Assembly (NCBI GenBank): GCA_949126835.1
Contig: OX421502.1
Location: 39,560,563 to 39,624,562, forward strand
Length of the DNA stretch: 64,000 bases
Source of the DNA: Anisus vortex
Lineage: Eukaryota; Mollusca; Gastropoda; Planorbidae
Direction: 5' to 3'
Positions 5,890-60,215 of the stretch are shown here, one piece after another (the stretch's first letter is position 1; each line of letters opens with the position of its first letter). The notes below the pieces were generated by a model that saw only the letters and a program-made list of their open reading frames with translations, was not told where the DNA came from and made no database searches. The position numbers were made by a program, and so were the translations under genes.

Positions 5890-6112
5890 AAGTATTCCGT
5901 CGGGCCAAATTGATTACAGGGCCGGTGAAGCAGCGTTCAACAGTTTCTGTGGCCACGGCATACTAGGGGATATGTTGCTAGCAACATGCCCAGCCGTCTT
6001 TACTTTACCCCAACTAATGTCAGGTACCCATCAGAGTTAGGTTCATTCAGGTTCACCCTCGAGTCCATGGAAAAAATCGTAGCCATCACCAGGATTCGAA
6101 CCCATGACCAAT
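5890..6112 (-). mobile_element. tRNA-derived SINE family B, copy 1
   Basis: Minus-strand SINE: the reverse complement of CCAGGATTCGAACCCATG (6089-6106) carries a Pol III B box GGTTCGAATCC. The body shares AAGCAGCGTTCA, TTTCTGTGGCCACGGCATAC and CAGGTACCCATCAGAG with seven other copies in this window. The tRNA-like 5' head is cut off after the B box. Confidence 0.85.
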
Positions 6113-9261: not shown

Positions 9262-9800
9262 CACGGGTGTGCATGTGTCTTGTGTGTAGCCGTGCATGTG
9301 TCTTGTGTGTAGACGTGCATGTGTCTTGTGTGTAGACGTGCATGTGTCTTGTGTGTATCCGTGCATGTGTCTTGTGTGTAGACGTGCATGTGTCTTGTGT
9401 GTAGACGTGCATGTGTCTTGTGTGTAGACGTGCATGTGTCTTGTGTGTAGCCGTGCATGTGTCTTGTGTGTAGACGTGCATGTGTCTTGTGTGTATCCGT
9501 GCATGAGTCTTGTGTGTAGACGTGCATGTGTCTTGTGTGTAGACGTGCATGTGTCTTGTGTGTATCCGTGCATGTGTCTTGTGTGTAGCCGTGCATGTGT
9601 CTTGTGTGCAGCCGTGCATGTGTCTTGTGTGTATCCGTGCATGTGTCTTGTGTGTAGCCGTGCATGTGTCTTGTGTGTAGCCGTGCATGTGTCTTGTGTG
9701 TAGCCGTGCATGTGTCTTGTGTATATGTGCATGTGTCTTGTGTGTAGCCGTGCATGTGTCTTGTGTATATGTGCATGTGTCTTGTGTGTAGCCGTGCATT
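9262..9800. repeat. Minisatellite, 23 bp unit, about 23 copies
   Basis: Tandem unit GTGTGTAGCCGTGCATGTGT plus CTT, with A/C and T/C variants. As 23 is not a multiple of three and the unit has no stop in any minus frame, all three minus frames stay open and encode the same peptide family (THKTHARLHTRHMHGYTQDTC type). This shows directly that open frames over these arrays are not evidence of genes. Confidence 0.95.
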
Positions 9801-11720: not shown

Positions 11721-11910
11721 GACATGCCTAACTCCACAAATAAAAATGAGGAACATGGGTACAAAATGAGGAACATAAGCGCAAAGGAAGCATTTTCGAG
11801 TTAATATATATATACGCTAAATAATATTATTGAAATACATAAGAAAAATGGGTTCACTTACAGTAATAATTTATAATATTTATAATAATAAAGATGCTTA
11901 TAAAGAGCAT

Positions 11911-12172
11911 ATCCCGTTGACCAACTATGTCCTTATGGCCGGTGAAGCGTTCAGCAGTCTCTGTTGCCACGGCATACTAGGGGATTGTGTGGCCGGCACA
12001 ACGCCCAGCCGCCTTTAGTTCACCCCAACTAAAGTCAGCTACCCATCAGAGCTGGGTAGACTCAAGAACACCCCACCCCTAGTATACACCAGGATTCGAA
12101 CCCAGGACCTTCGGTACGCCAGCCGAACGCGCTGCCGCTATGTGTGCAGTGTATACCTGGCCATAGTGCCCC
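11911..12172 (-). mobile_element. SINE family B, copy 2
   Basis: Same body as the copy at 5890, with a better kept 5' end: minus-strand B box within 12088-12106 (reverse complement of CCAGGATTCGAACCCAGG) and a tRNA-like head that reaches TGGGGC at about 12172. The head has a short insertion near 12141-12160. Confidence 0.87.
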
Positions 12173-13237: not shown

Positions 13238-15565
13238 GTACCGAAAGTTATGCATTGACTTTCGGCCAAAAACCGAAAGTTTAACTACACCTTCGGTCGA
13301 AACCGAATAGATAATCCGATATTGCCAAACTGTGTGGGGGGAGGGGGATATAGAAAGAGAAACGTATTCAAATTATTTTCTCATATCGCTAAATACAATA
13401 ATCCAATAAACCTGTTATTTAAAAAACAATTTTCTAAAGATAAAACTTTGACTAGTTCATAAATCTGCAGGCTATAAAGAAATATGAAAACAGTTTTCAT
13501 ACATTTGACAATTTATATCTTTCTGTCAACACATCGAGTGCATTCACTCAAATTGTTGGGTTGGCATTCATTCAAATGTTCAATCCCCGGACAGGATAAA
13601 CGGACATTTTGTCAATGTTATTTCTATCTATTGCTTTTCTGTTCTAGTTTTTTTTTTTTTCAAATTACATCTATGATCTATTCTAAGCTTTTGATAGAAT
13701 AGAAACGGTATAAAAAAAAATAAGGCAAATAAAATTAGGGAAATAGTTTTGCCTCCAACTTTGTCATCGCTGAAAAGACGCAGACGACGAGACCCTCGGG
13801 ATACGTCTGGTACATGGCAGGAAAATGAAAGGATTATATTAGCGTGAAGTGGAATTTCTTTCCAACCTGTGACGTAATAAAGGGTTTGTTTTATTTTTTC
13901 TGCCCTCAGACAGGCCTCGGTGAAAACGTCTCCTCCCCTCCCCATTGACGTGACATGCCGCTGGCTGATCAAAAAGAAAAGTGTTGATTCTGTTCTAAAC
14001 AAATACTGTATGCATCAAATAAAGGGTTTTTAATACGTTGGAAGTTGGAATACGACGGTGGGTGTCAGACTAGAAGCAGGTGGAAAAGAAACAGGGGAGA
14101 TTAGAGGCAAGGTAGATTAGGGGATACGGGCAGATTAAAAGCTATGTAGAATGTAGAAGGTCCAATGTGCAGAGAAAAAACGTGGAACGTTGTGTTTTTA
14201 CATTTGTTGTTGTCGTGGGGAATGAAATAGAACTTACGAACAGTGTCCTACTGCGTGTTTGTAAGTATGTGGGTGTCTGTGTGTGAGATAGAGAGAGAAA
14301 TCGAGATAGTGAGAGAGAGAGGGAGACAGACAGAGAGAGAGACAGAGAGAGACAGAGAGAGAGAGAGAAAGTATGACTGTGTGTTTATTGTAAAGGTATA
14401 AAAAATAACAGCAAGACAGAAATAGTATCAAGGTCTCTGACATTCAGACACCAGCTGCCTGGGTCATTAACATAAACGGAAGTAAAATACTGCATGAATT
14501 ATTCAGTAGTTAATACTAAATTATGAAATAAAACTACTAATTTTCAGAAACATTGTTGGATAAACGGTTGCCATGACAACATTGACAACAACTATTGACG
14601 TGTACGCGTCAACTCCTCCTCTAATGTAACAGAGCTCCCTACTCCCCCCTGCTCACTCCACTAGTGCCAAAAAACCCCACAAAAAAAAACAAGTTCAGTT
14701 AATGGCCACTCTTTGCGGCGGCTACTAAATTCAACACGGACCGACGCCACTCGCTTGACTTCTTTGGACACGGCGGTGAGATCAATTAAAACCTATCCTT
14801 GGGTCGTCTCGCTGACTTCTTCAGGACCATTCCACACAAACGTGGAACATGATAACCGTTTTGTGTGGCACGAGTAGATAATCAAATAAAACAAATCGCG
14901 AGCGCAGCGTCGAGGGCGACTGGAGAATGTTTCTCAGTGGACAATTATTAACTCTTTCCGATCAACAATTATTTGGAGCTCGACCTAAACGTCCAACAAT
15001 AAATACTTATCTAAACTTTTTTCGTTTCATTAGGGTTAAGAATGTTGGGTGTTTATTGGCAACATAAAATAGACTTACAACAGCAGTGGGACGGTAGCAG
15101 CGCTCGTCCGTTTGTCAGTGACACTTCCGTGCTAGTAGTAGTAAGTCCCTGCAATCAAAACGTCGCCAGTTCTCAACGATTTACACTGCAGACACGTAGA
15201 CTGACAGACAACAGGTAGACAGACTGAATGGCAGACGTACACAGACAGACAGGCAGGCACACTACTGACACGATAACTTTATTGTAGCTGTAAATCTTGT
15301 TTCATCTTTTCAACAAAAGCTTGTATTGTTGATACTGTAACATGTAGCAGACGACTGGCTCAATAAGTCAATAGTCTGGTCTAGGATCGTACAGAATGAC
15401 CTTTTTTTTAAAAACCTAGTGACATTCTTAGGTCATGTTACGAAATATGTGACAATATATTATGTCACAGACTGCGCAGTTTAAACTCTCTTTCTTACAA
15501 AGAATAATAATTCACCACAATCACTTTGTCCACTTTTATTCTTTTATAAGAAACGTTCAATATAG
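13238..15565. other. Intron sequence without recognised genes
   Basis: Contains a small T/A-rich stretch near 13655, GA-repeats at 14285-14370 and a moderately GC-rich stretch at about 14580-15260 with no recognisable exon. Short ORFs lack domain signatures. Confidence 0.5.
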
Positions 15566-15790
15566 ACGGATTCGATTCCTGGTGAAGACTATGATTTTTT
15601 CCCGGGATCGGAAGGTGTCTCTGAGTCTACCCAGCTCTGATGGGTACCTGACCTTAGTTGGGGTAAAGTAAAGGCGCTGTGCATAATGCTGGCCACACAG
15701 TCACCTAGTATGCCGTGGCCACAGAAACTGGTGAACGCTGCTTCATCGGACCTATGGATCAATTTGGCCCGACGGGATACTTTAGAACAA
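15566..15790 (+). mobile_element. SINE family B, copy 3 (plus strand)
   Basis: Opposite orientation to copies 1 and 2. Starts inside the B box (GGATTCGATTCCTGG, 15569) and runs to the 3' end signature TTTGGCCCGACGGGATACTT. The tRNA-like 5' part is missing. Two short ORFs over it are incidental. Confidence 0.85.
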
Positions 15791-16017
15791 CTGAATCACT
15801 TGATGTGGAATCTATACCAGGTAATACACACGCACATAAAACCTCTCCCCCCCACCCACTTTCAGTTTTGGCTGTGTTGTTTTGTTTTATCTTACTTTAC
15901 ATGTAATGAGATAAGTTATTGTTATGAAACTGATTTATTTATCGACTAAATATTGTGTTATCAGATGCGGTAAACTAGCGACAGAGCGCTGAATTCTCTT
16001 TCCAAAGAGGTCTTGAA

Positions 16018-16300: not shown

Positions 16301-16500
16301 NNNNNNNNNNNNNNNNNNNNNNNNNNNNNNNNNNNNNNNNNNNNNNNNNNNNNNNNNNNNNNNNNNNNNNNNNNNNNNNNNNNNNNNNNNNNNNNNNNNN
16401 NNNNNNNNNNNNNNNNNNNNNNNNNNNNNNNNNNNNNNNNNNNNNNNNNNNNNNNNNNNNNNNNNNNNNNNNNNNNNNNNNNNNNNNNNNNNNNNNNNNN
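16301..16500. other. Assembly gap (200 N)
   Basis: A run of N of a round 200 bases, typical of a scaffold gap of unknown or estimated length. ORFs spanning it are meaningless. Confidence 0.99.
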
Positions 16501-17240: not shown

Positions 17241-17468
17241 AAATTGATCCATTGGACCAATGAAGCAGCGTTCACCAGTTTCTGTGGCCACGGCATACTA
17301 TGTGATTGTGTGGCCAGCACTACGCACATCCGCCTTTACTTTAACCCAACTACAGTCAGGTACCCATTCGAGCTGGGTAAAATGAAGGAAAATGTGCTAG
17401 CCTGCGCCAGGATTCGAACCTACTGAGCGCCAGTCGAACGCGCTGCCGCTCGACCACCGTTTCCCCGT
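17241..17468 (-). mobile_element. SINE family B, copy 4
   Basis: Nearly full length: 3' end at the low coordinate (AAATTGATCCATTGGACCAA), B box in the reverse complement of CCAGGATTCGAACC (17407), and a tRNA-like head with GAACGCGCTGCCGCTCGACC reaching 17468. Confidence 0.87.
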
Positions 17469-18321: not shown

Positions 18322-18664
18322 ATGGCGTCTAGATACATCAGCACTGATGTGTTAGCTGTGTTTGACCAATGGCGTCTAGATACATCAGCACTGATGTGTT
18401 AGCTGTGTTTGACCAATAGCGTCTAGATACATCAGCACTGATGTGTTAGCTGTGTTTGACCAATGGCGTCTAGATACATCAGCACTGATGTGTTAGCTGT
18501 GTTTGACCAATGGCGTCTAGATACATCAGCACTGATGTGTTAGCTGTGTTTGACCAATGGCGTCTAGATACATCAGCACTGATGTGTTAGCTGTGTTTGA
18601 CCAATGGCGTCTAGATACATCAGCACTGATGTGTACTGATGTGTTAGCTATGTTTGACCAATGG
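18322..18664. repeat. Minisatellite, 48 bp unit, seven copies
   Basis: Unit begins ATGGCGTCTAGATACATCAG and ends GTGTTTGACCAA. Each contains the perfect inverted repeat CATCAGCACTGATG, able to form a 6-bp-stem hairpin. The last copy has an extra ACTGATGTGT duplication. Confidence 0.93.
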
Positions 18665-22103: not shown

Positions 22104-23507
22104 GAGCGACAAAGAGAAAGAGGAGTATATCTTATACAACATTTACTTTAAAACACGTGGTCACCAAATAAAAAAAAAAATGCATTCTGTTGAACTAAAT
22201 TGTTTTATTATAATACATGTATGGAGAAGTATAAAACAAAACATAGCCAAACGAATGTTGACTACAATGAAAGAATGCCAGGTTGGCATATTTCTTGCCA
22301 CCAGACTCCTCTCCCCCCCCCCCCCTTTCCTGTGTAGAAAAGTACCATGCCTTACTTCGCCCCCCGTGTAGAAAAGTACCATGCCTTACTTATTTACCCA
22401 AGAGAAGTCAACAGATTTGTTTGACGTCTGCGCGTGGATTGTTTCTCCCAATGGTCTCAACTCCTGGCGTTACTTTTTGCCGCTTTTTTTTTTTAACAAT
22501 CCAATAAAATAGTTTTTAACGACAAGTTGTTTTTTCTAAAGCCCCCCCCCCCCCCCAAAAAAAAAAAAGAAGGGTTGGTGGAGATGAATAGTTCACCACT
22601 GTTCCAGCTCATTTATCGCCCTCGCCTGATCGCTCGCAGTATAACTTTAAAAAAAAAAATCTGAATAGGCTACTCGTGAAGGTCTCGCTTCACGCACCCC
22701 CAGTGTCGACTCTTGCGGTTAGTACTGGATGACCCAGTAAAGCGTACGACTTTTCACCACAAGGGAAATAAAAAAATATATAAATACCGGTATACAACAA
22801 TACCAGAAAAACCACCAAAAGGTAAGTTGGTTGGTTGGTTGGTTGGTAGTAAAGGACAGATGTTTGTGTTGAAAGTTGAAATATTAAAAAAAAATGACTA
22901 GGGGAGGAAAGGGAGAAAGGGAGGGGGCGGGTAAGTCTTAAAAGATCTGTTTTTCTGATAATTTAAGGGGCAGGTAATTGAACGCTTTTATTGTGCTCAA
23001 TGTATAAATATTGCGTTACGGGTAATCTCCCGTTTAAAACTTTATTCCTACACTCGACTTTTAAAAAAACATTGAAAAAGAGAAGAAAACGCTTCCGGTA
23101 TTTCAGGCACTGTTGGCTGTGGCACTTGACTGATAACCCTGCAGTCAAGGTTACTCTGGAACTCTAGATCGATTGCAGGGGCGTGTCAAGCCATCGATAG
23201 AGTGGGTACACATTCCTTTGGTGTAAGCTTACTTGTTTGTTGTTTTTTCTGTAACAATTTGTCATGACGAGAAAAAAATATACGGAGAGTGGTGGGGTGG
23301 GGATTAAATAGCGATGACGAAAATACATGTATATGTGTACACATATCTGTATATAAACAGAGATAGATCGGCAGACGGACAGGCAGGCATATAGACAGAT
23401 GATAGATAATAGATAAGAAGACGGATACGCAGACATATAAATAGAAAGATAGATAAATAGACAGACACAGAAAGACTGATATACATACATATAGTCCATA
23501 TAGATAA

Positions 23508-23513
<6 letters not shown>
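19976..23513. other. Intron sequence without recognised genes
   Basis: Includes (TG)n at 20872-20900 opposite (CA)n at 20928-20943, which could pair; (CA)n near 21485-21525; GA-rich 22045-22120; a poly(C) and adjoining poly(A) run near 22541-22570; and (GGTT)n near 22828. None of the short ORFs shows a domain. Confidence 0.5.
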
Positions 23514-23538
<25 letters not shown>

Positions 23539-23893
23539 TAAAAGATAGATAGATAAGATAGATAAGATAGATAAGATAGATAAGATAGATAAGATAGTTA
23601 AGATAGATAAGATAGATAAGATAGATAAGATAGATAAGATAGATAAGATAGATAAGATAGATAAGATATTTAAGATAGATAAGATAGATAAGATAGATAA
23701 GATAGATAAGATAGATAAGATAGATAAGATAGATAAGATAGATAAGATAGATAAGATAGATAAGATAGATAAGATAGATAAGATAGATAAGATAGATAAG
23801 ATAGATAAGATAGATAAGATAGATAAGATAGATAAGATAGATAAGATAGATAAGATAGATAACATAGATAGCATAGATAGCATAGATAGATAG
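23514..23893. repeat. GATA-type array, mostly 10-bp AGATAAGATA unit
   Basis: Starts as (GATA)n, becomes a long AGATAAGATA array and ends as imperfect (GATA)n. The 10-bp unit is free of stops in several minus frames, giving poly-(LSI/LSY) ORFs that are not genes. Confidence 0.93.
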
Positions 23894-27201: not shown

Positions 27202-29370
27202 AACTATACTACATTCTAATCTTCTCAACTTATTTGCCCTCGCGTTTGGCTTGTGCAGGACTGCGGACACCAAAATTCTTCCTCGTAGACTCCATTTTCT
27301 CCGCTGATCTTTCAGTGAACACCAGCACAAATTTAGTGTTTCATTCAACCCGTTTGCCTGAGTCTTTCACGTGGTACAGGCGGCTTCCATATCAGCTTTG
27401 AGCTTCGATGTATTGCCTCGCGTGACTTGGGTATATTTACATTGTTAAATAGCCTGCGCTGTTGCCCGACGACCGCCCGCCCACCCCTTCCCGCTGGTGG
27501 AAAAATTATGGTTTTATCCCAGGGAGAATTTTTTTTATCCATTTCAAGGTGACCTCTGTAGCTAGTGTAAGGTCACCATGACATTTTTTTCTCAATATCT
27601 TACAGTCAAAATTGCATCGTATCGATCTCTCTTCCTATCTCTCTCTCTCTTTTTCCCCCTTCTCTGTATCTCGCTTTCTTTATATATATTTCTCTCTCTT
27701 CTCTCTCTCTCTCTGATCTATCTTTAACCTTATATTCCTTCTCCCCCCCCCCTCTCTTCCATTTCATAAAAGTGCTGTTCTGTGTTTATAGTCACTGCAG
27801 AAACACTGAGTGAGGGGGGGGGGACACAGATCTGATCACCATGGGGATCAAATCCAGATGACGTGGACAGGACAAAGAGTGGCCGCTATGACCAACACTG
27901 CGGACGGCTGTGTGAAAGTGACCGAGTTATTGGATTACTGGATTCCCCCCCCCCCCTCCGCCTACAAATCCTCTCGATCAAATTTTTCTCCCTTTAAACA
28001 ACAACCATCTTTCCCCCTCCCCCTTCGCTCCAACCGATTACTGTCCTTTACGTGGCGGTCAGAAATGAGGTCGGGTCATTTCAACTCCACCACAAAGACA
28101 TAAAACGGCCAACTGGGATTGGGGGGGGGGGGGGGGGGTGTTGGTAGGATCACAAGGTAGTTGCGTGTTTAGCTTCATCCGCTCACATACATATTTTATT
28201 AGTGTTTCTGTCGTTTATCTAATATCATTTGATTCCCACAAAAAACTATATTAAGTGATGAAACCATAACCAATACTAGAGTTCTAAAAAATTGTCAATG
28301 AACCATCACATGGGGGGGGGGGGGGTTAATGTATGTTCTGATCCGGGTGTTTCTAAGACTCGACGTTCGTCTCACCAGACTGATTTTACACGAGAGCAAT
28401 GTTTACTAAACGCAGGCTATGTGAAAGTTGAGCCTTCCCGCCATTCCCACCTGTTTAATTGAAATATTTTGTTTACTCTCAAGGTCTTCATCAACACGCC
28501 ATCATCAATTGGAGCTTTCAATATTTACTTAACATGTAGACTTGTGTTGCAGTGAATACGTATAAATATATAAGGTATAACATAAGGACATAAATGCATA
28601 GATAGGGGTAAACTAATGGCTGTGTATACATGTGTTCTTGTTGTGTGAGTGTAAACTATTGGCTGTGTATACATGTGTTCTTGTTGTGTGTTGTGTGTGT
28701 GTAAACAAGGCTATTTTACCAGATTAAGTAGCATAATCGGCTTAATCCAAAATAAGACTAAGACAGAGAGAGAGGGGGGTGGCAGGGAGGAAAGAGACAC
28801 GGCAGACAGAGAGAGAGAGGGGGGGGAGTGGAAAGCGGGGAGAAAGGAATGATAGGATAAACGAGAGAGGAGAGATGAGATAGGAAAGAGAAGAAATGGA
28901 GGAAAGAGAGGAGACAAAAAGCAGAGAGAGGAGAAGAGGGGAGAGAGGAGAAAGAGGGGAGAGAATTTGGGGAAAGGAGATACAGAAGGAATAAGTGTGC
29001 TGTGGTATAGAAAGATATAGGATGTTTATCAGGCCAGGCAGTAAAAATAACAATATATTTTATGGTTTAGTTCAGGACTTGTGTCTTGGGTTTAAGGCTC
29101 ATGAATTTGAGAAAGATAAAAATCACAAGTCATCCCCGATTTCTTTTTTGTCACCTCGACCACACCCCACGTTGGTATCAGGTGTAACTAAAAACGGTAT
29201 TTCCAGGTGAGCCCCCCCCCCCCCCCAGACAACAGAAGGATAGATGCAAGCATGGTGGTATAGTTTCTGTAGTTTATTGCTGGCCTCCGTGGGTCACTTT
29301 ACACTTGTTCTGAAACTTTTACCTGGTGTATCTGTTACATCTTTTACAACTATATTCATACTGAAGATAG
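27202..29370. other. Low-complexity intron sequence
   Basis: CT-rich at 27625-27755, several poly(G)/poly(C) runs (about 27743, 27813, 27947, 28121, 28313, 29213) and a GA/GGAGA-rich block at 28758-28990. A duplicated GGCTGTGTATACATGTGTTC lies at 28618 and 28661. No gene recognised. Confidence 0.6.
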
Positions 29371-29874
29371 TGTTATAAAGTTGCACCAATGCCCCTTCCT
29401 GACCTTTTAAACTAATCTAGATTCCAAGGGAAAGTTTGAGCCCGTTGTGTTTTTATAAACTAATTAGATTTCCCACCCTCCTTTCCTGCTATCAATTACA
29501 AATTGTTTAGCCATCGTAATAAAACTACACTGGCATCTACAAGTCGTGACGCTGAATTGTAATCGTAACTACAACTGCCCCACCTACACCCTTTCTTCAA
29601 TTACCTCTCACCCACTTGCATAGATACTTTAATTGGAAGCGTCTCCAATAGCGCCTCAATGTCTATTTTGATAAGGTTTAAGGACACCCTGAGGTCTGGC
29701 ATGATTGTTACTGTAATTAAGTAAGATTAATGTTTTCAAGCTAAACCCTGACTTAGCCCCGCCCACCTAGTTTTCGAACAAAGAGGAACGGAAATGTTGT
29801 TCTATTAATTAAACGACATTCTTACCAGACTTGTGTCTGTGTTTTTGGGAGTGGAAGTTTTTCCCCTAGTTACG

Positions 29875-29976
29875 ATTGGCTGTACCCTAACCAATGAGTA
29901 CTTCTGGGTAATGAGAAGATAGACTTTAAAAAGCCATGTTTCTCCCTTCAGACTCCAGTTGAGTTTAAGTTCAGTT
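29875..29976 (+). promoter_or_regulatory. Candidate LTR promoter
   Basis: An inverted CCAAT (ATTGG, 29875-29879) and a direct CCAAT (29891-29895) lie upstream of a TATA-like TTTAAAAAG (29925-29933). CA at 29949-29950 is about 25 bases downstream, and TCAGTT at 29971 fits an initiator. Repeated GTTGAG words follow. The start site is inferred, not shown. Confidence 0.5.
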
Positions 29977-30100
29977 GAGTTCCGAGTTGAGAGTTTATCT
30001 CCGTAGTAGGAACATTACTTGTACATAGTGTTTATCAGGATTAGTTTTGGACTTGTATTTTTTCTTATGTGTCTTCGTCTTGTATTCAAGTGTTATACTA

Positions 30101-30106
30101 AATAAA
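30101..30106 (+). terminator. Polyadenylation signal AATAAA in the LTR
   Basis: AATAAA followed about 20 bases later by a GT-rich stretch (CTGGTGTTG). The equivalent signal in the 3' LTR near 36752 would end the element's transcript. Confidence 0.65.
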
Positions 30107-30297
30107 ATCACAATTGTCGTGCAACTGGTGTTGATCTCAATTAAAATTCAAGGTATTACATGGAATTAACATTGAAATAGAATCATAATTACTGAAGTAA
30201 TCAAGCCCATATAAAAACAAACAACTCTTGGAATATTGAGCCTACACCTAGACAACAGCCAAATACATAATATTGCACGAGTACGTAACATATTTAT

Positions 30298-30315
30298 TGG
30301 GATCTCGTGTCCGGA
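30298..30315 (+). other. Candidate primer binding site
   Basis: TGGGATCTCGTGTCCGG begins 7 bases after the LTR. TGG matches the CCA end of a tRNA. The remainder resembles a tRNA-Pro complement only partly, so the primer is not assigned. Confidence 0.35.
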
Positions 30316-30515
30316 ATATTCCAGTTTTGTCTTAAAATAACTTGCTTCAAGACTCTGCTCATTCAACGTTTACTAATAATTAGTGTCAACTTTGAACTGT
30401 GTTTTACACTGGACTATATTTGATCTGTGGTGTTTTTTTTTTTAAAGAACTTTGTTATTTTTATAACGACTCAAGTAAGTTGGACATTTACTTTAACAAA
30501 CTTTTAACATAAAAA

Positions 30516-33500
30516 ATGGAATCTATTGCAAACATTACAATCAGTGAGCTAGACAAAATGTCACTCACACAACTTAAAGGACTTGCTCAATCTTTGGGCA
30601 TAGAAGTATCAGAAACAACACCAACAAGATTTAAATTAGTAGATGAAATAAAAGAGTGCCTGATAGCACAGGGTAAACTAACCACTGATACTGTTACAGA
30701 AGAGCGTGATGAAGAAGATACAGTTAGTTATCATGAAAGAACACCTGATCGTAATCAAGAATGCCCTGTAATGAATGAACAATTGAAGTTTCAACTTGAA
30801 ATGCAGAAAATTGAAAGCCAGGAGCGTATCCAGATACAACAAATACAACTGGCTAAAATGGAAGCTGAAAGTAGGGAACGCATTGAAATGGCACGCCTGC
30901 AAGGTGCAAGCATTAGCAGAGAAGGTGTTAACGTTGATCTTATCAAATTCAAGAAACATATTCCAGAATTCAAAGAAACACACGTTGATGAATTTTTCTT
31001 GCTGTTCGAAAAGGCATCTGAAGATTACAGTTTTCCAACGGAAAAGAAAGCCTTACTGCTCCGTTCAGCCCTAAATAAAGGTCGAGCCATGGATGTCATT
31101 CTAACCCTGAAAGCTGAAGAAGATAAAAACTACGATGTCATCAAAGACAAAGTACTTAGAGCATACGAGATGGTGCCAGAAAAGTACCGGAAGCTGTTCC
31201 GAGAAGCCAGAAAAGACCACGATCAATCACACGTAGACTTCCTGCGTGTGAAAGAAAAACAACTTGATCGTTGGCTTAGGCCAAGGTACGTTTCAAATGA
31301 CTTTGAGAAATTAAAAAACATTGTCTTGTTAGAAGAATTTTTAGATTGTGTTCGAGTGGATGTTAGAACCCATATAGCTGACAGAGGCGTTGAACAGGTG
31401 CAGGCAGCAGCTCGATTAGCCGATGACTACGTTTTAATACACCCAACAGTAAAAACTTATCAAAATGACAAATTCAAAAGTACAGTAAAGCAGAACACGA
31501 ATGAGTCTTATAGACAGAAACCCATTAATACTATTCACACCAGTATGAGCAACACCAAGAAATACAACGAAACACAAAATACAAAGCCGTATTGCCAACA
31601 CTGCAAAAAAGAAGGGCATACAAAACAGAATTGTTGGACCTTAAACAGAAAAGTCAACAAACCTAAGCAAGAATTAGCTGGTTGCTATGTCTCCAGATCA
31701 ATGATAAACACTGCTACGTATAAGAACAACCCAGAAATAGAACTAGATATACTCAACTCTACTTGCCAGACAACAGCTAGCGCCAGGAAACATTTTGAGA
31801 ACAAAACTAATTCTCAGAAAAGTGCCAGTCGACACAGTACTCCGACAGAGAGCACAGATCAAGACGTTTCAAGTCACCGTTCGTCCATGAGAAAGGCCAT
31901 CTCTAAGAGACAAAAGACGGTTGTCTTTGAAAACAGTCTGTTGAACCCTAACCAGAGTTTACAAACAACTCCCGTTTGCAGCCTAGCTTCAAGTTCGTCA
32001 CAATTTGGCAGTAATTTAGAACAGGTCACCAATAAAGATCCTGAGAACACAAACCTCAAGGACTTTATGCCTTTCATTTCAGATGGCTATGTGTCGTTAC
32101 CAAACGATACACTCGGCAGAAAGCATATCAAAATCCTCAGGGACACAGGTGCTTCCTTAACTGTGATCCTAGAAGGAACCATCCCGTTGTCTGAAAAGAC
32201 ATACACAGGACAAAATGTACTGCTGAGAGGTGTAGAAATGGGGAACATGGAAGTTCCTCTACACAGGATACAACTTCAATCAGAGTTGATATCTGGACCT
32301 GTTACTGTAGGTGTACAGCCTGCTTTGCCTTTTGAGGGAATATCTCTACTCATAGGCAATGATTTAGCTGGGGGAAGAGTAAAACCTGAACCCATCATGA
32401 CTCGTGACCCCGACCTGAATGATAAGCCAACAGAAGATGCTTACCTATATCCTGTGTGCGCTATCACCAGGGGCATGAGCCGAAACAACGTTGAGTCCAA
32501 CGAGACCACCGCCAAATCCTCACGAGAACTACCCGAAGTAGACTTAAGCGCAACATTTTTTGCCCGTCTCCTCGAAGGTCCGTCGTTAGAGACCAACGAA
32601 AATAGTCTGTCCCCGAGACAGCTATTGATCCAAGAGCAACAGAACGACGTAGAACTCGCCAAGCTCAGGGAAGAAGCAGTTACTGCTGCTGAATCAGAAA
32701 ATGTAGCTGAATGCTATTACCTAAAGGATGATCTCCTAATGAGAAAGTGGAAACCACGAGAAGCAACAAGTGACAGCAACTGGGAAAACGCCCACCAGAT
32801 TATGGTACCAGCTAGATATCGCAACGATATTCTACACATCGCCCATGATCTACCGTTTGCCGGTCATATGGGAGTCAACAAGACCTATCATCGGGTCCTC
32901 CCTTACTTTTATTGGCCAGGCCTACGTAGAGACGTCGCATCATATTGCAAGTCTTGTCACACCTGTCAAATGGTTGACAAACCGAACCAAACCATACCTG
33001 TTGCCCCACTACAACCAATCCCAGCGTTTTCTGAACCGTTCAGTAAAATACTGATCGACTGTGTGGGACCCCTACCTAAAACCAAGGCGGGTCACCAATT
33101 TCTGTTCACTATAATGTGTTCATCAACCAGATTCCCTGAAGCCATTCCGCTGCGTAGCATAACAGCTGACAAAATAGCGGACGCCTTAACCGGTTTCTTT
33201 ACTAGGTATGGCCTCCCACGGACTGTTCAATCGGACCAAGGGACAAACTTCACGTCGAAACTGTTTGGTCAAGTCCTCAAGCGTCTAGGTATCCAGCACA
33301 ATGTGTCTAGTGCATACCATCCAGAGAGACAAGGAGCCCTTGAAAGGTTCCATCAAACACTCAAGTCCATGTTAAGGACTTACTGTTTCGAACATTCGAA
33401 AGACTGGGACAGAGGAGTACCCCTCGTACTCTTTGCTGCTCGCGAGGCTGTACAAGAATCCCTCGGATTTAGTCCTTTCGAACTAATATTTGGCCACACT

Positions 33501-35399
33501 GTTAGAGGACCTCTGAAATTGCTCCAAGAAACTTGGACAACGTCAACAGAGACCACGGGACTGTTATCTTATGTTGACAAATTTAAAAACCATTTATTTG
33601 ATGCTTTTAATTGTGTTAAATCTAATTTGTCACAGGCTCAAGGCACAATGAAGACCTGGTATGACAAGAAAGCAAGAATAAGGAGTTTTGACACCGGAGA
33701 CAAGGTTTTAGTTTTCCTTCCTATCCCTGGTCAACCACTGAGTGCAAAATTCTCAGGACCATATGAGGTTGAGAAAAAAATCAGTAGTGTAAATTACCTG
33801 ACAAAAACCCCTAACCGCAGAAGGGAAAAGAGGTTATGTCACATTAATATGTTGAAACCTTACTTCCATAGGGAAAAGGGTACATCTCAGGAAAATCCTC
33901 CTATTGTTCCCATGACCCCTATCACTCAGATACCTACTGATCTCCATAAAATTGAACACAAATTTGCAGAATGCAAATTGCAAAACTCCTCTACCTTGAA
34001 CAATTTTGATGCTAAGATCAATCATTTATCTTTGACTGAGAAAAGTTCAATAAAAAATTTGATTTCAGATTTTCCACAGCTATTTAGTGATGTTCCTAGA
34101 AGGACTCACCTCATTGAGCACGACATGGTTCTTGTTGAAGACTGTAAACCGCTTAAACAACACCCTTATAGGGCTAACCCTTTTCAACTTCAACACATAA
34201 GGCAGGAAGTTGGATACATGCTGAAGCATGACATCATAGAGCCCAATGCTAGTGACTGGAGTTCCCCATGCGTGTTAGTCCCAAAAGCAGATAACTCCCT
34301 CCGCTTCTGCACTGATTACCGGAAGGTAAATGCGGTCACTAAAACTGATTCCTACCCAATACCCAGAATAGATGACCTCATTGACAAGATTGGTGATGCA
34401 AAATTTGTAACCAAAATTGACCTCTTGTCTGCATATTTTCAAATCCCATTATCTCCTAGGGCCCAAGAAATTTCTTCTTTTGCAACCCCTGACGGTTTGT
34501 TTAAATACAAAGTAATGCCTTTTGGTTTGAAAAATGCACCAGCTACCTTTCAAAGATTAATCAACTCAATTGTACAAGACATTTTTCAATGCAATGCTTA
34601 TCTAGATGATATTGTCATATACAGCAATGATTTTCCAACCCACGTAAAACAATTGAGACATTTGTTCACCAAGTTAGACAATGCAAACTTAACAGTAAAC
34701 TTAGCTAAAAGTCAATTTGGGCACGCCACAATTGAATATCTAGATCATATTGTTGGCGGTGGAAAAATTAAACCAGTCGATGCCAAAATAACTGCCATTC
34801 AGAATGTCCCTACCCCTCAAACAAGAAAACAGGTTAGAAGTTTCCTTGGGATGGCAGGGTATTACCGTAAGTTCTGTGCAAACTTTTCTACCATAGCATG
34901 TCCACTCACAGACCTTCTGAAGAAGAACTCTAAGTTCAAATGGGCTGACGAGTGTAATAAAGCATTTGAACAACTTAAGCTTATATTGTCCCATGCTCCT
35001 GTGTTAGTAACACCTAAGTTTGAAAAACCCTTTAAGATAGCAGTAGATGCATGTGATACTGGAATGGGAGCTGTCCTATTTCAGGAAGATGATGACAAGA
35101 TAGAACACCCCATATGTTATCATTCTCAGAAGTTTAATCCCCATGAGAAAAATTACAGCACTATTGAAAAAGAACTGCTAGGTATTATACTTGCTCTGAA
35201 GCATTTTGACTTTTATGTGAATGGTTCTCCATATCCCATAGAGATATTTACTGATCATAACCCACTAACCTTTTTGACTAGGGTTACTCAGAACCAAAGA
35301 CTTCTCAGATGGAGCTTGTTTCTGCAGTCATATGATCTAATCATAAAGCACATTAAAGGCAAAGATAATGTTATTGCCGATGCTTTATCTAGAATGTGA
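30516..35399 (+). CDS. Gag-protease-integrase-RT-RNase H polyprotein
   Basis: One 1627-residue ORF starting at AAAAAATGG. Domains in order: SAP/Rho-N-like helical segment (11-50); charged coiled coil (85-130); capsid-like region (140-310), whose C-terminal part (about 240-306, with WLRP at 253-256 and LLEEFLD at 271-277) looks like a SCAN domain; CCHC knuckle C360, C363, H368, C373. Protease has DTGAS at 543-547 and IGND at 613-616. Integrase zinc ligands are H777, H784, C814, C817, and the catalytic triad is D848, D907, E943 (D-35-E). A GPY/F module follows (about 1060-1117, FSGPYEV); no chromodomain seen. RT motifs are near D1302, FGLKNAPATFQ (1336-1346) and YLDD (1362-1365). RNase H has D1511, the E1551/E1553 region, D1580 and D1622, ending in ADALSRM. 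All catalytic residues seem intact. Gag and pol are fused without frameshift or stop. It makes the virus-like particle, copies RNA to DNA and integrates it. Confidence 0.97.
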   Translation: MESIANITISELDKMSLTQLKGLAQSLGIEVSETTPTRFKLVDEIKECLIAQGKLTTDTVTEERDEEDTVSYHERTPDRNQECPVMNEQLKFQLEMQKIESQERIQIQQIQLAKMEAESRERIEMARLQGASISREGVNVDLIKFKKHIPEFKETHVDEFFLLFEKASEDYSFPTEKKALLLRSALNKGRAMDVILTLKAEEDKNYDVIKDKVLRAYEMVPEKYRKLFREARKDHDQSHVDFLRVKEKQLDRWLRPRYVSNDFEKLKNIVLLEEFLDCVRVDVRTHIADRGVEQVQAAARLADDYVLIHPTVKTYQNDKFKSTVKQNTNESYRQKPINTIHTSMSNTKKYNETQNTKPYCQHCKKEGHTKQNCWTLNRKVNKPKQELAGCYVSRSMINTATYKNNPEIELDILNSTCQTTASARKHFENKTNSQKSASRHSTPTESTDQDVSSHRSSMRKAISKRQKTVVFENSLLNPNQSLQTTPVCSLASSSSQFGSNLEQVTNKDPENTNLKDFMPFISDGYVSLPNDTLGRKHIKILRDTGASLTVILEGTIPLSEKTYTGQNVLLRGVEMGNMEVPLHRIQLQSELISGPVTVGVQPALPFEGISLLIGNDLAGGRVKPEPIMTRDPDLNDKPTEDAYLYPVCAITRGMSRNNVESNETTAKSSRELPEVDLSATFFARLLEGPSLETNENSLSPRQLLIQEQQNDVELAKLREEAVTAAESENVAECYYLKDDLLMRKWKPREATSDSNWENAHQIMVPARYRNDILHIAHDLPFAGHMGVNKTYHRVLPYFYWPGLRRDVASYCKSCHTCQMVDKPNQTIPVAPLQPIPAFSEPFSKILIDCVGPLPKTKAGHQFLFTIMCSSTRFPEAIPLRSITADKIADALTGFFTRYGLPRTVQSDQGTNFTSKLFGQVLKRLGIQHNVSSAYHPERQGALERFHQTLKSMLRTYCFEHSKDWDRGVPLVLFAAREAVQESLGFSPFELIFGHTVRGPLKLLQETWTTSTETTGLLSYVDKFKNHLFDAFNCVKSNLSQAQGTMKTWYDKKARIRSFDTGDKVLVFLPIPGQPLSAKFSGPYEVEKKISSVNYLTKTPNRRREKRLCHINMLKPYFHREKGTSQENPPIVPMTPITQIPTDLHKIEHKFAECKLQNSSTLNNFDAKINHLSLTEKSSIKNLISDFPQLFSDVPRRTHLIEHDMVLVEDCKPLKQHPYRANPFQLQHIRQEVGYMLKHDIIEPNASDWSSPCVLVPKADNSLRFCTDYRKVNAVTKTDSYPIPRIDDLIDKIGDAKFVTKIDLLSAYFQIPLSPRAQEISSFATPDGLFKYKVMPFGLKNAPATFQRLINSIVQDIFQCNAYLDDIVIYSNDFPTHVKQLRHLFTKLDNANLTVNLAKSQFGHATIEYLDHIVGGGKIKPVDAKITAIQNVPTPQTRKQVRSFLGMAGYYRKFCANFSTIACPLTDLLKKNSKFKWADECNKAFEQLKLILSHAPVLVTPKFEKPFKIAVDACDTGMGAVLFQEDDDKIEHPICYHSQKFNPHEKNYSTIEKELLGIILALKHFDFYVNGSPYPIEIFTDHNPLTFLTRVTQNQRLLRWSLFLQSYDLIIKHIKGKDNVIADALSRM

Positions 35400-36010
35400 T
35401 TTATGCATGTTAACTTTTACCAGAACACCTATGAATTGATTTACAGATGTGTATTATATCAAATGAATCATTACTTATTTACTGAAACCTTATCAATATT
35501 TTTATATTGGTAAGATGCAATTTTAACTTTTTCTTAAAAGTTTTGATAAATATATATATATACTTCACATTTATTGGTAACTCAGAAAAATATATATATT
35601 ACCCTCATCTTACATTTAAATATTTTTATGCATGACTACATTATTATTAAGTCATTGATATTCAATTACTACAAGTACTGTTGAAATAACTATACGATTT
35701 TTCTTTCTTATATAATTACTTTACATGTGTATTATGCAAACTTATATGTTTTTGTTTTTTTGGAACAACTAGTTCCCACCTATCTTGTATTTTTACAGAA
35801 AAATGTAACCTTACTTTTAAAAGCCTTTGCACTTTATGAGTGAAGCTACAGAAATAATATTAGTTTTGTAAGGGACTTTTAAAACTCAACATGATTCCCA
35901 ATTCATGATTTGAATTTTATTATTGACATTTGTAAACTTTTTGAAATGTACATAAGTTTGACCAAAGCAAATTTCCCATTTTAGATTATGGTTAATTTCC
36001 TTTTTCCTTT
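35400..36010 (+). other. 3' untranslated region of the retrotransposon
   Basis: About 610 bp, AT-rich, with TATATATA tracts and no ORF. No env-like reading frame is present. Confidence 0.85.
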
Positions 36011-36021
36011 AGGATGGGAGG
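36011..36021 (+). other. Polypurine tract
   Basis: AGGATGGGAGG directly precedes the 3' LTR, where plus-strand DNA synthesis is expected to start. One T interrupts it. Confidence 0.8.
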
Positions 36022-36941
36022 TGTTATAAAGTTGCACCAATGCCCCTTCCTGACCTTTTAAACTAATCTAGATTCCAAGGGAAAGTTTGAGCCCGTTGTG
36101 TTTTTATAAACTAATTAGATTTCCCACCCTCCTTTCCTGCTATCAATTACAAATTGTTTAGCCATCGTAATAAAACTACACTGGCATCTACAAGTCGTGA
36201 CGCTGAATTGTAATCGTAACTACAACTGCCCCACCTACACCCCTTCTTCAATTACCTCTCACCCACTTGCATAGATACTTTAATTGGAAGCGTCTCCAAT
36301 AGCGCCTCAATGTCTATTTTGATAAGGTTTAAGGACACCCTGAGGTCTGGCATGATTGTTACTGTAATTAAGTAAGATTAATGTTTTCAAGCTAAACCCT
36401 GACTTAGCCCCGCCCACCTAGTTTTCGAACAAAGAGGAACGGAAATGTTGTTCTATTAATTAAACGACATTCTTACCAGACTTGTGTCTGTGTTTTTGGG
36501 AGTGGAAGTTTTTCCCCTAGTTACGATTGGCTGTACCCTAACCAATGAGTACTTCTGGGTAATGAGAAGATAGACTTTAAAAAGCCATGTTTCTCCCTTC
36601 AGACTCCAGTTGAGTTTAAGTTCAGTTGAGTTCCGAGTTGAGAGTTTATCTCCGTAGTAGGAACATTACTTGTACATAGTGTTTATCAGGATTAGTTTTG
36701 GACTTGTATTTTTTCTTATGTGTCTTCGTCTTGTATTCAAGTGTTATACTAAATAAAATCACAATTGTCGTGCAACTGGTGTTGATCTCAATTAAAATTC
36801 AATGTATTACATGGAATTAACATTGAAATAGAATCATAATTACTGAAGTAATCAAGCCCATATAAAAACAAACAACTCTTGGAATATTGAGCCTACACCT
36901 AGACAACAGCCAAATACATAATATTGCACGAGTACGTAACA
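36022..36941 (+). repeat. 3' LTR
   Basis: Same length as the 5' LTR and, by eye, two substitutions. Followed by the target duplication ATAG at 36942-36945. Confidence 0.97.
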
Positions 36942-36945
36942 ATAG

Positions 36946-37928: not shown

Positions 37929-38195
37929 TAAAGTATCCCGTCAGACCAAACTGATCATGGGAGCCGGTGAAGCAGCGTTCGTCAGTTTCTGTGACCACGG
38001 CCATACTAGGTGATGTGTGTGGCCAGAACAATGCACAGCCGCCTTTACTTTACCCCAACTAAGGTCAGGTACCCATCATAGACTCAGGGACACCCTCCAA
38101 ACCCGAGAAAAAAAAATCTTAGCCTTCACCAGGATTTGAACCCAGGACCTTTGGTACGCAAGTAGAACGCGCTGTCGCTCGGCAACCGTGCCCCA
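37929..38195 (-). mobile_element. SINE family B, copy 5 (near full length)
   Basis: The most complete copy: 3' end near AAGTATCCCGTCAGACCAAA, body, B box in the reverse complement of CCAGGATTTGAACCCAGG (38129), and tRNA-like head ending near TGGGGCACGGTTGCCGAGCG when read on minus. The head resembles a class II tRNA (Leu/Ser-like GCCGAGCG). Confidence 0.88.
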
Positions 38196-41100: not shown

Positions 41101-43949
41101 CTCGCTGTCAGAACGTCCAGAGCTCACATCGTAGATTGAATCTGACGAAAACAACAGCCATGTTGACTCGTGGATGGTGGGTGAACTTGTCGGTCCGTAA
41201 GCGCCATCTGTGGGCGTGCACGAGAAGGACAACTCTGGATGGAAATAACTACACAGCGCGTTCCTCTAAAATCATTGCCCAGTCCCCAAACTGTTCACAA
41301 GTCTTTTCCCAAATAAAACTGGGGGGAATACAATTCACTAACCACTACACAACGATATGTGTCAGAGCGTATCTTTTTCTTTTAAAACTTTAAAGATCTT
41401 TTATACCGCTTTTGTCCATTAGGCCTACGGCACAATTCACGGACTTTACCAAACTTTTTCCCTAAACTCGACCCAAAAATAATTTTTTGTTTTGAAACTT
41501 CCTGAACCCTTATGAACAATGCTTAATACAAATACAACCGCATTATACGTTAGAAGTGGATAGTGCGACTCAATAAAAATATATCTGATTTCCAGACCCG
41601 TTAAAGAGTTCAATGTCATGTGCTAGAGACATTTTTTTTCTTAATTTTAGACGAAGTAAAAAAAATAAAACAGCAAGATTTAAATTATAACGTTTTCAAT
41701 TATTTAGTCTGAAAGTCACGCCCTCGTGTAAAGCCCTGAACAAATATGCTAACTGACAATGAAAGCTGATGTACCTGTACCACACGAGTTTTTTTTTTAA
41801 TGAAACGAAGTGGGTGATTGAGTTGGCAGCTAATTGTCAAGTGACGGCCGCGTCAAAGTTTAAGCCCTCGGTAGCCGAAACAAGCCTCGGTGTGGCTGGT
41901 ACCCGGTGTTGTGTCAACACCGAAGCTCCAGAATATATATCTATTTTTCTTTTGGTAACGGTTAACGTAGGCAAACAGAATGCCATCAGCGAACATGTAC
42001 AAGTTCAACAGCGGAGCGATAGCAAGACAACCGTAAGTATTTACGATGGTCTTGGCAATAGTCGCTATATTGGAGAGTGGGTAAACAAGGTAGACGGGTT
42101 GGGCTTCAATTGAAATTAACTGTTGGGATTAATGGCGCCACAATAATTTAATGTTTTCTGGTATAGTTATAAGGAAAAAAAAGAATTAGCCTTAAAACAT
42201 GTCGATCAAGTAGACTTTTGGTTGTTATAGTCGAACTCTATGACGTAGTTAACTCAATGGCGCCTCGAGTAAGATTAAAGACACGAGCGTATTAGGACAT
42301 CTTTAAAAAAAAAACGTTATTGTCCTAAGATGTAGATCTCCATAAGAAAGAAGAAAAGACAATTCCAACCCTGGATTCACCATCCAGTGATGCTCTCCCC
42401 TTTCCAAAACAGATTCATTGGCATTCATAATAAGACTAACTATTAACAACTTAAATCTAAACCATAACCCCTGGGTTCAAAGTTGTTGCAATAGATAATT
42501 AGGTGAAAGTAATTAAAAAAAAAAGACAGTTAAGGGCCAGGGACAAATGGAGACGTAAGCCTTTATGGCAGACTCATTAACACGTCAGGGAAAGTCACGT
42601 GTCCTGAGGACTTTTTTACCCGAATGGCTTGACGGATGGCTGGATTAAAGGGATGCTCGCCGTGACCTCGAATGACCCAGGCCTGGTGGTTACTGTGATA
42701 GATGGAAGGACTGACCAGAGCTGAAAGGTTTTCTGTGTCAATCGGTAGAAGTCACATTTGACGTCCTGTATGCCGATTGGATTGGTTAAAGAGATAGATC
42801 TAAAGATTGAGACTGGTAGCGAGGGCGTGAACACAAAAGAAATCACTTGTAATTTTTTTGTTCAGTACAAGTAAGAATTTGTCTAGTTAACAACACATAT
42901 TTTCGTACTGTTTTTTCTTTGTTTGTTTGTACAAGTCAAGAAAATTGTGAAACATTGTACGTCCAATTTTGTATTAATTAACAAATCCATTTCAAGTAGA
43001 TGTATAGGCCTACAAAAATATAACATAGAACATTTTAAATTTGACAAAGAAGAAATCTAGTTACGGTAAGAAAGAATGCATGATACAACGGAGCTAGCGA
43101 GCTACAAAATATTTCTCGTATTCCGCATGGCAATTAGCATACCAGAAATATCATCAAACAGCACACTCACTCACTCACTCAGACCCTTTCAAACGTGAGC
43201 ACACAATATCAACATGCATAAAACCTACACGGTTCCTAACGGCGTCCATACATTATTAGAAATCTCGCGTGGTTTATCCTAGATAGCGTAAAGAATTTAC
43301 GCTAAACCAAAGTTATTGAACGGTAAATCAAGTTATACCAGCCTTGACCATAAACACGGGGATATTTCTTTTTTTTTATTATTTATTTTTAGTGCTTCTT
43401 CCTAGATTCTTCTTCTTCTTCTTCTATCCCATAACCCGGGCGAGGGTCGTTGGGGTACCATTTTTTGATAGTTGGATTATGTCCTAGATTATGGACATGT
43501 AATTTAAAAAAAAACAATTTTGCCTCTTTACAACTGTAAACTATAAATTAAAAAAAATCAATTAAATTATTACTAGTTTCAATAACAAATGTATAACTAT
43601 ATAATTTTTATGTTTCAAGATTTAAAAAAAAAACTAACCACCCATTTTTAAAATAACAACTTTTAAAGTTATCTTCCCTTTTAGTTTTCTGGTACATTTT
43701 GTTTTGATTGGATGGTAAAGTAGACTTTCCTCCTGAAAACATTACATCATTAAATATTCTAACCGCGCAACTGTCGCAGTCATCAAAGTCAAATATTCAT
43801 CAAAGAATATTTTAATTCAATTAACGAATCCACATCTTAGCATATATTTGTGCGTGCTTGTGTGTGCGTGCGTGTGTGTGTGCTTTTGTGTTGAGCCAGG
43901 AGGGACGTGGTTTAATTAAAGAAAACAAAATGTCAACTACAACACTCAC
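38196..43949. other. Intron sequence without recognised genes
   Basis: Mixed AT-rich sequence with poly(C) runs near 39300, 39520, 40384 and 40801, (CA)n near 39313, (TTC)n near 43410, and (TG)n near 43855-43880. Short ORFs, for example near 39502 and 41769, lack recognisable domains. No host exon seen between the retrotransposon and the exon ending at 43950. Confidence 0.5.
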
Positions 43950-44079
43950 CCGTTAAAGGGTCAATCTCAAACAGGTTCTGTGCATTCCCACTGGAGATGG
44001 CGAACGTTGGCCCTAGACTGTGGTCATCTCCGTCCGTTGCCTGGACCTGGACCACTCTCTGCTTCACGGACACATTCTC
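43950..44079 (-). CDS. FAT-like cadherin, exon (second seen)
   Basis: A 130-bp minus-strand exon with acceptor TGTTTCCAG and donor GTGAGTG. It starts in phase 0 with ENVSVKQRVVQVQATDGDDH and goes on through TFAISSGNAQNLFEIDPLT, ending with one base of a Gly codon completed by the exon at 12901. These are classic cadherin features: the EN opening motif, V-x-V-x-A-x-D with a DxD calcium site, and F-x-I-D-P-x-T-G. It continues directly from ASVE of the upstream exon. The wording and the S-G-N-x-Q-N-x-F segment closely resemble FAT1/FAT3-type repeats. A FAT-like product would be a giant single-pass adhesion and planar-polarity protein; that role comes from the family, not from this fragment. Confidence 0.9.
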
Positions 44080-44141
44080 CTGGAAACACACAAGCGAAAT
44101 GAGTAACCGTTAGTATAAACCAAATAACTGCTCATCTTACT

Positions 44142-45873: not shown

Positions 45874-46726
45874 CGCACCTCTACTGTCATTTTTTTTTCT
45901 TTTAGAAACTGGGTGGGTGAGGTTTAACAAGAAGTTTACAGTAAGGCGGTAAAATAATAGGGAACGCTATGGTGCTTTTTGATGTCCTTCTTTGGAGAAG
46001 CAGACTACACGAGCCGTGTCGAGGGCTTTTTCTGTAGCGTTATTTTCTTTACTTCTTACGCCTTATATTCATCAAAAAATGTAAGGAAGTACTTACTAGT
46101 TACGATATTGCAGTAGATCCGGAATTTATACGAAATAACAGAAGGTGGTTAAAGTATATATTAATGAGTAATTGAGAGTATATGCGGCGTATTCACATGT
46201 ATAATCAGTAAAGTATATATTGGTGTGTATTTCACAGTATAATAATATGCGCTGTATTTACATGTAAACTCAGTATATATGGTATAGTGTATTGTTAGCG
46301 TTTTCTACAAAAATAATTCCTGACCGGAATATTTGCATGATTATATTTCGTGACCCGCGAACGTTTACCAACATATTGCACATACGTATGATTATGTGGA
46401 GGAAGGAATAAGGGCAACAGTACCCGTTTCGCCAAGCCCGGTGTCCTGATGACCAGTCCTATAGTCTGATATTTGTACTACCGGTCGAAAGTGCATTTAT
46501 ATGAGTTAATGCCACCTCGTTTATGATCTGAGAGAATTCCTTGGGGAGGGGGTGCTACGGGATACTTATTAATTCCCCTTCAGCGGCATGCCAGGGACAG
46601 GATCTCAAAGGTGTGGATGAATTGACGCCACTTTTCCTTTTTTTTTACACGTTACGCCCTGGACTCGAGAGCCGAGAGGAGGGCTCCTCTGCAGTAAAAG
46701 ACCTTAATAAATTCAGCAGTGCGTAC

Positions 46727-46908
46727 CTCAACAGAGGCGTAGTAGGCGGGCTCCACGCTCTGGGGGATGTTGTCGTTCACATCCGCCACGTCGATCAGGA
46801 CCTCCAGCCGGGCGAACTTGGGCACCAGGGCTCTGTCCTGCGCCAGGATCGTCAACCAGTAGTGGGGGGTCGTCTCCCTGTCCAGGACTTGGCTAGTGCG
46901 GATGGTAC
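46727..46908 (-). CDS. FAT-like cadherin, exon (first seen)
   Basis: A 182-bp minus-strand exon with a pyrimidine-rich acceptor TTTCACCAG and donor GTACGCAC. It starts in phase 1 (two bases of a Gly codon) and has 60 codons: TIRTSQVLDRETTPHYWLTI, then LAQDRALVPKFARLEVLIDV, then ADVNDNIPQSVEPAYYASVE. LDRE, A-x-D and DVNDN-x-P are calcium-binding cadherin motifs; DVNDN marks the linker to the next repeat. The YWLT...EPxYY stretch is like the FAT1-3 class. It ends in phase 0 and joins in frame to the exon at 44079. The preceding exon, which must end in phase 1, was not found up to 64000. In vertebrate FAT genes a very long exon encodes the N-terminal repeats; whether the same holds here cannot be seen. 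Confidence 0.92.
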
Positions 46909-47170
46909 CTGGTGAAACGAGAAAACAAAATATTTGTAACACATGAAATACTTGTAAATAGCTATGATGCATTTGAAAGATTCATGATTTTTACAAAGTA
47001 AATAATGTGTGAATGTCTTTATCTATTGAGTTATTTAGCAGGTTTATAAAGGTAAGCCCCATGAAAGAGAAAAACATATTTGCTAAGCCCAATGCTAAAG
47101 AATGAGCAACGACAGTGTAAGTTAAAAAAAAAAATAATTGTAAATGATATTACTACAATAAAAGTTGGCA

Positions 47171-59885: not shown

Positions 59886-60215
59886 GAGATTTTAACAAGA
59901 AAGAGAGACAACGAGAATGAGAGAGAAGAGAAAAGAGAGAAAGAGAACAAGACAAATAGCGAAAGAGAGAGAGAAAAGAATGAGAGTAAAAGAGAGATGA
60001 AACAAAGAGAAAGTTAGGAGAAATAGTAAGAGAAAAGAATGAGAGTAAAAGATATACATTATAGAGAAAGTTAGGAGAAATAGTAAGAGAAAAGAATGAG
60101 AGTAAAAGATATACATTATAGAGAAAGTTAGGAGAAATAGTAAGAGAAAAGAATGAGAGTAAAAGATATACATTATAGAGAAAGTTAGGAGAAATAGTAA
60201 GAGAAAAATAGAGAT
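59886..60215. repeat. GA-rich tract with 57-bp tandem repeat
   Basis: Purine-rich sequence with about 3.5 copies of a 57-bp unit (GAGAAAGTTAGGAGAAATAG to AAAAGATATACATTATA) at about 60004-60205. Being 19 codons long, the unit keeps a minus frame open. Confidence 0.9.

Follow-up and report, generated by a model that had tools for sequence, protein, structure and literature searches.

A young, intact Gmr1-like LTR retrotransposon with integrase ahead of reverse transcriptase and a variable primer-binding site in the gastropod Anisus vortex

The window analysed here, a stretch of 64,000 nucleotides from the genome of Anisus vortex, carries a complete LTR element on the + strand (29371-36941, 7571 bp) in which integrase (IN) is encoded upstream of reverse transcriptase (RT). 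We consider it very probable that this is an autonomous LTR retrotransposon of the Gmr1-like lineage of Ty3/gypsy, complete and recently inserted. An earlier note, made from the letters of the sequence, had placed the element at 30516-35399; these coordinates are correct for the open reading frame, but the element itself is larger.

The 5' LTR (29371-30290, 920 bp, TGTT...AACA) and the 3' LTR (36022-36941, 920 bp) differ at two positions. Both lie on the + strand, as do all internal features described below, and they are flanked by the target-site duplication ATAG (29367-29370 and 36942-36945, read directly from the sequence). A putative primer-binding site in a mismatched form (TGGGATCTCGTGTCCGGAAT, 30298-30317) starts 7 nt past the 5' LTR, and a putative polypurine tract (AGGATGGGAGG, 36011-36021) is located 5' of the 3' LTR. 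A single ORF (30516-35399, stop TGA) encodes a Gag-Pol protein of 1627 aa. The LTR pair, the target duplications and the reading frame, which is open throughout, bear out the earlier description of a complete and intact copy. No candidate for env was found as an ORF of at least 100 aa (ATG, GTG or TTG start) between RNase H and the 3' LTR (35400-36021), and blastn with the LTR and the interior did not reveal a second copy in the window. Rfam (at gathering scores) and ARAGORN gave zero matches within the window, and a scan of viral contigs did not find a relative of the element.

The Pfam matches in the protein follow the order SCAN, RVP, Integrase_H2C2, rve, Integrase_p58_C, RVT_1 and RNase H families. 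The SCAN-type capsid domain of Gag (31176-31433; residues 221-306, E 7e-10, 39 bits against a cut-off of 27) is followed by a CCHC zinc knuckle detected by pattern (31593-31634; residues 360-373) and by an aspartic protease with DTGA at residue 543 (32112-32366; residues 533-617), whose RVP match of 20.0 bits is slightly below the cut-off of 20.7. Integrase consists of the zinc-binding domain H2C2 (32805-32978; residues 764-821, E 8e-22), the core (33033-33323; rve, residues 840-936, E 8e-12) and the C-terminal domain with GPY at residue 1081 (33756-33860; Integrase_p58_C, residues 1081-1115, E 8e-9). Its acidic triad is D848, D907 and E943, the latter two separated by 35 residues (D-35-E); D848 and D907 are inside the Pfam stretch and E943 is slightly past it. 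Next come the reverse transcriptase with YLDD at residue 1362 (34278-34742; RVT_1, residues 1255-1409, E 2e-31) and RNase H (34941-35333; RT_RNaseH and RT_RNaseH_2 within residues 1476-1606, best E 6e-35), right behind which the ORF ends. Pfam and motifs together thus confirm the order that had been read by eye: Gag, protease, integrase (H2C2, D-35-E, GPY), RT (YLDD) and RNase H.

Among solved structures the top relative of the RT is Ty3 (306 bits), followed by a chain named "enzymatic polyprotein" (169 bits) and a "peptidase A9/RT/RNase H" chain (126 bits). Ty3 is also the top relative of the integrase (137 bits), with PFV next (103). Because RT and IN both find their top structural match in Ty3, whose chain has RT before IN, the swapped order is not a matter of chance. 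A Ty1/copia origin was rejected: the Pfam listing (11 families, E up to 1) contains neither of the copia-type families, RVT_2 and the pre-integrase domain.

Copies of the element were sought in the same genome (863,417,759 bases, 159 contigs) with the window's protein, and 29 of 13,066 first-look candidates were scored. At least 27 places, including the window, are collinear with the protein at 96-100% identity, and 21 of the 27 have no internal stop. Two further places match at 94%, with the first 86 residues matching separately. Ordinary order among the genomic copies, which would have refuted the earlier note, is seen in none of them: all 29 scored places keep the order of the window protein, and 23 have no stop inside the match. 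It might be argued that IN before RT reflects faulty assembly, or that an ordinary gypsy element was rearranged in this single instance, yet we give these ideas virtually no credence. The 26 collinear places outside the window show the identical domain order at 96-99% identity and are spread over many contigs, so that the same arrangement at no fewer than 27 places refutes an assembly error. Against a one-off rearrangement, 153 of the 154 relatives listed in two Gmr1-type searches (described below) share the order; the one that does not is a gene model in which conventional units are repeated.

The window element and 20 other copies (L009-L028; n = 21 in total) were compared with each other. 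The two LTRs of a copy differ at 0-2 positions in 20 of the 21, and at 8 of 963 in L028; for L027 the comparison of the 3' LTR covers only 741 positions, and this copy was excluded from the duplication count. Target duplications, read from the flanks, are present in all 20 evaluable copies; they measure 4 bp in 19 copies and 5 bp in the remaining one. The purine-rich 17 nt preceding the 3' LTR are identical in 20 of the 21 copies, with one change in L021. Since the LTR pairs are nearly identical, the family is young, and the window element is a young, intact and recently inserted member of this multi-copy family.

Some copies elsewhere in the genome are arranged head to tail, as a trio (C5:20298443-20316656, 6677 bp apart) and as a pair (C9:40899960-40911488, 6669 bp apart); both distances are near the LTR-to-LTR spacing of 6651 in the window. 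The surroundings of the window element were inspected as well. Of ten candidate host ORFs scanned with Pfam, eight had no match and two matched Cadherin, which identifies the host as an animal. The two are minus-strand exons at 43936-44109 (28.9 bits) and 46655-46981 (28.2 bits; cut-off 28.8), the nearer about 7 kb from the element, which is on the downstream side of the exon. Tandem arrays with a score of at least 400 occur at 1-692 (unit 19 bp), 2673-4034 (42 bp), 7405-8691 (39 bp), 9269-9799 (23 bp), 18322-18634 (47 bp), 23500-23893 (9 bp) and 59970-60207 (57 bp), and those with units of 42 and 39 bp yield long repetitive ORFs. An interspersed repeat at 15560-15800 has five further matches in the window that are 79-90% alike (near 5890-6103, 11910-12072, 17241-17379, 37929-38143 and 63860-63987), and 16301-16500 is a run of 200 N, either a gap in the assembly or a withheld stretch.

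Three protein searches define the kinship of the element. The first used the IN-RT-RNase H region of the window (best 120 of 6392 hits), the second a segment of conventional pol taken from a pseudoscorpion gene model (best 120 of 6990) and the third a relative from Pecten (best 120 of 2811, including 34 new ones). IN precedes RT in 119 of the 120 proteins of the first set, in 0 of the 120 of the second and in all 34 new proteins of the third. The one protein of the first set that departs from this is P0014, a gene model with three conventional units. In the conventional set, 102 proteins have RT before IN, 15 have repeated or mixed orders and three are without a domain. For the trees, the 68 conventional proteins with full domains were reduced to 23 diverse ones, of which 14 entered quick trees and 8 careful trees, all of them thus deriving from the one pseudoscorpion-query search; 32 IN-before-RT proteins plus the window were used in both. 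Ty3 pieces were added in the quick trees and omitted from the careful ones because of their long branch.

In the careful trees (41 rows: 33 IN-before-RT, 8 conventional) the IN-before-RT proteins are all separated from the conventional ones by a branch with support 100/100, for IN as well as for RT. The quick trees (48 rows, Ty3 included) concur (support 98 and 99); Ty3 drew a long-branch warning. RT and integrase falling in unrelated clades, the outcome that would have contradicted the earlier note, was not seen: each groups with the IN-before-RT rows. The nearest sampled row to the window is P0001 in both trees (88% identity in IN, 95% in RT). The window sits within a 13-row sublineage, delimited once the first search and the quick trees had been completed; this sublineage has support 100/100 for RT and 94/99 (unstarred) for IN and is unresolved in the quick IN tree. 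In the RT tree its nearest neighbours include Pinctada and Pecten, weakly (80/77). A SCAN match was found in all four IN-before-RT relatives that were scanned.

As both domain trees give one IN-before-RT clade, RT and IN have a common history, and their order is not a local construct. A possible objection is that IN before RT evolved here independently, by convergence outside the Gmr1 lineage, and the trees were indeed drawn without the original Gmr1 sequence. We nevertheless regard convergence as very improbable: it is rejected by the single, fully supported clade in the two trees, and the SCAN match shared with the four scanned relatives also argues against it. The swapped order is inherited from the ancestor of the group, and local rearrangement is not its source. 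Judged by structure and kin, the window element is almost certainly Gmr1-like Ty3/gypsy, its tie to cod Gmr1 running via shared structure and relatives. Domain order, the Ty3 structure matches and both trees thereby support the earlier assignment as a gypsy-type pol with IN before RT of Gmr1-like type.

The hosts of the group are diverse. Among the matches listed, IN-before-RT proteins come from the bivalves Pinctada imbricata and Pecten maximus, the shrimp Penaeus vannamei, the echinoderms Amphiura, Holothuria, Apostichopus, Lytechinus and Diadema, and the hemichordate Glandiceps. Echinoderm, hemichordate, shrimp, bivalve and sponge proteins are all among the rows of the IN-before-RT clade. 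The sponge protein (P0262, Dysidea avara) has SCAN and IN before RT and lies on a 65-Mb contig. Four Gmr1-like proteins (P0050, P0074, P0090 and P0265) are filed under Campylobacter, Thiodiazotropha and Heimdallarchaeota genomes; these are probably animal DNA in the respective assemblies.

Gmr1-like Ty3/gypsy elements were reportedly treated by Goodwin and Poulter in 2002. In the excerpted texts, the first such elements in protostomes are reported from crustacean hosts (PMC3587641, 2013) and an annelid Gmr1 family is described (PMC8220671, 2021), while another paper counts Gmr1 as one of five clades occurring in several phyla and places an annelid Gmr1 element in a clade that is absent from its own analysis (PMC8556966, 2021). 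A 2018 paper, again as excerpted, notes in its Background section that Gmr1 departs from the usual domain order; the 21 Gypsy clades that it names for molluscs do not include Gmr1 (PMC6238403). The excerpts of published papers also associate a SCAN-type Gag with Gmr1-like elements. No clear naming of a Gmr1-like element from a mollusc or a sponge was found in the excerpts of a mostly open-access literature. Given the crustacean and annelid reports and the bivalve, shrimp and sponge members in the databases, the group is neither new nor confined to deuterostomes, and the IN-before-RT order itself is already described and settled. The expectation that a protostome copy would be new evidence on the age and spread of the group is thus overtaken by these reports. 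What the window adds is a young multi-copy family in one more animal, and the database searches extend the hosts by two bivalves and a sponge. The bivalve and sponge members suggest that the group is either ancient in animals or moving between them. Mollusc members, if confirmed by name, would close a gap in the 2018 survey of molluscs.

The copies differ in their primer-binding site. A TGG block stands 7 nt past the LTR in all 29 copies read. The mismatched 20-mer TGGGATCTCGTGTCCGGAAT is identical in 22 of them (the window, 15 of L009-L028 and L039-L044), whereas five (L012, L015, L018, L026 and L047) have the exact 18-mer TGGGGGCTCGTCCGGGAT. We take the latter to be of tRNA-Pro type, complementary to the 3' terminus of that tRNA, its end presumably being the position of the known stop before methylated A58. 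L009 has the exact 18-mer plus one extra G and L046 a second mismatched form; L046 and L047 are in a subfamily with LTR pieces 87% like those of the window. Against the implied tRNA end the mismatched form reaches -20.1 kcal/mol (7 of 1000 shuffles were as low) and the exact form -41.8 kcal/mol. Self-priming is disfavoured: at 9-14 nt, complementarity between the first 70 nt of the leader and the LTR amounts to one 9-mer only. This 9-mer, at 30315-30323, shares 3 nt with the end of the primer site.

The site type does not follow the relationships of the copies. On a tree of the 21 copies (IN-RT region) it needs five changes, at least three of them forced by starred branches, and is unclustered, as 500 of 500 shuffles were as low; 4 of the 18 inner branches are starred. 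The ten pairs of exact-type copies include two within a lineage, which differ by 8 and 30, and eight others, which differ by 99-139. L011, with the mismatched form, has no mismatch over 850 bp upstream to either L012 (exact) or L009 (exact plus G), and over 5400 bp downstream it has 12 and 6 mismatches, respectively.

This alternation of site forms between copies that are identical over 850 bp upstream suggests tRNA-templated rewriting. The simplest reading, which we hold tentatively and at a little less than even confidence, is that some new insertions receive a primer site newly copied from their tRNA-Pro primer, as retroviruses do. At the same tentative level, an inherited mismatched form and a tRNA-copied perfect form would coexist in near-identical copies, in two subfamilies. 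If this is the true explanation, Gmr1-like elements would show that such renewal of the primer site is not confined to Retroviridae. Several points weigh against rewriting: recombination does happen in the family (L026), the tree on which the argument rests has few starred inner branches, and rewriting accounts neither for the extra G of L009 nor for why the mismatched form persists.

An exchange of site forms among copies by recombination (template switching) instead of tRNA copying appears unlikely, though it deserves consideration. At least one recombinant, L026, is present: compared with L009 it has 1 mismatch in the 850 bp upstream of the primer site and 98 in the 5400 bp downstream. The upstream identity of L011 with L012 and L009, despite a different site form, speaks against exchange. 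The informative sites flanking the block show no difference among L009, L011 and L012, whether upstream or downstream of it, and L010 deviates only at the far downstream end. With matching flanks on both sides, an exchange would need to be confined to a short block.

Less likely still, and rather doubtful in our opinion, is that the mismatched form complements a second host tRNA, the family thus using two primers. The uniformity of the mismatched 20-mer across 22 copies would fit such a use. A 15-mer of this form, however, occurs exactly 29 times in the 863 Mb, 28 times in element copies (22 beside protein-search copies by coordinates and 6 in further copies) and once elsewhere, in an 815-bp stretch in which ARAGORN finds no tRNA; being an exact-match search, it could let a mitochondrial, unassembled or slightly different tRNA escape. 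The seven protein-search copies without the 15-mer are the seven with other site forms. The primer-site polymorphism makes the inheritance of gypsy primer sites testable with existing genomes.

Summarizing, the following life cycle may be proposed for the element. Its RNA would be translated into one Gag-Pol polyprotein, the SCAN-type Gag would assemble into a particle, and the protease would presumably release IN and RT-RNase H, which stand in inverted order. Reverse transcription of the RNA by RT would then start at a tRNA, tRNA-Pro being the likeliest primer, and the DDE integrase is expected to insert the DNA, the target duplications being usually 4 bp.

The design of the element is that of known Gmr1-like elements: in the excerpted literature these likewise combine IN upstream of RT, gypsy-type RT and IN, a SCAN-type Gag and one Gag-Pol ORF. 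We see no difference in design; the window falls in a sublineage of its own within the sampled rows. According to the excerpt of PMC11117352, Gmr elements of Tetraodontiformes similarly have Gag-Pol in one ORF (1506-1634 aa), but they measure 6058-6465 bp with LTRs of 337-518 bp, against 7571 bp and 920 bp here. Yeast Ty3, to which the closest solved RT and IN belong, differs from the window element in having RT before IN. Strict inheritance of the primer site was reportedly the subject of a 1994 Ty1 paper, judging by its title. A review describes the primer site as strictly inherited in both Ty1 and Ty3 (PMC7472051). The same review describes the mouse ETn/MusD elements, in which perfect and mismatched primer sites are dispersed over the family tree as they are here, and for which copying of the tRNA has been proposed to explain the mixed pattern; these elements differ from ours in belonging to Retroviridae and in using a Lys tRNA.
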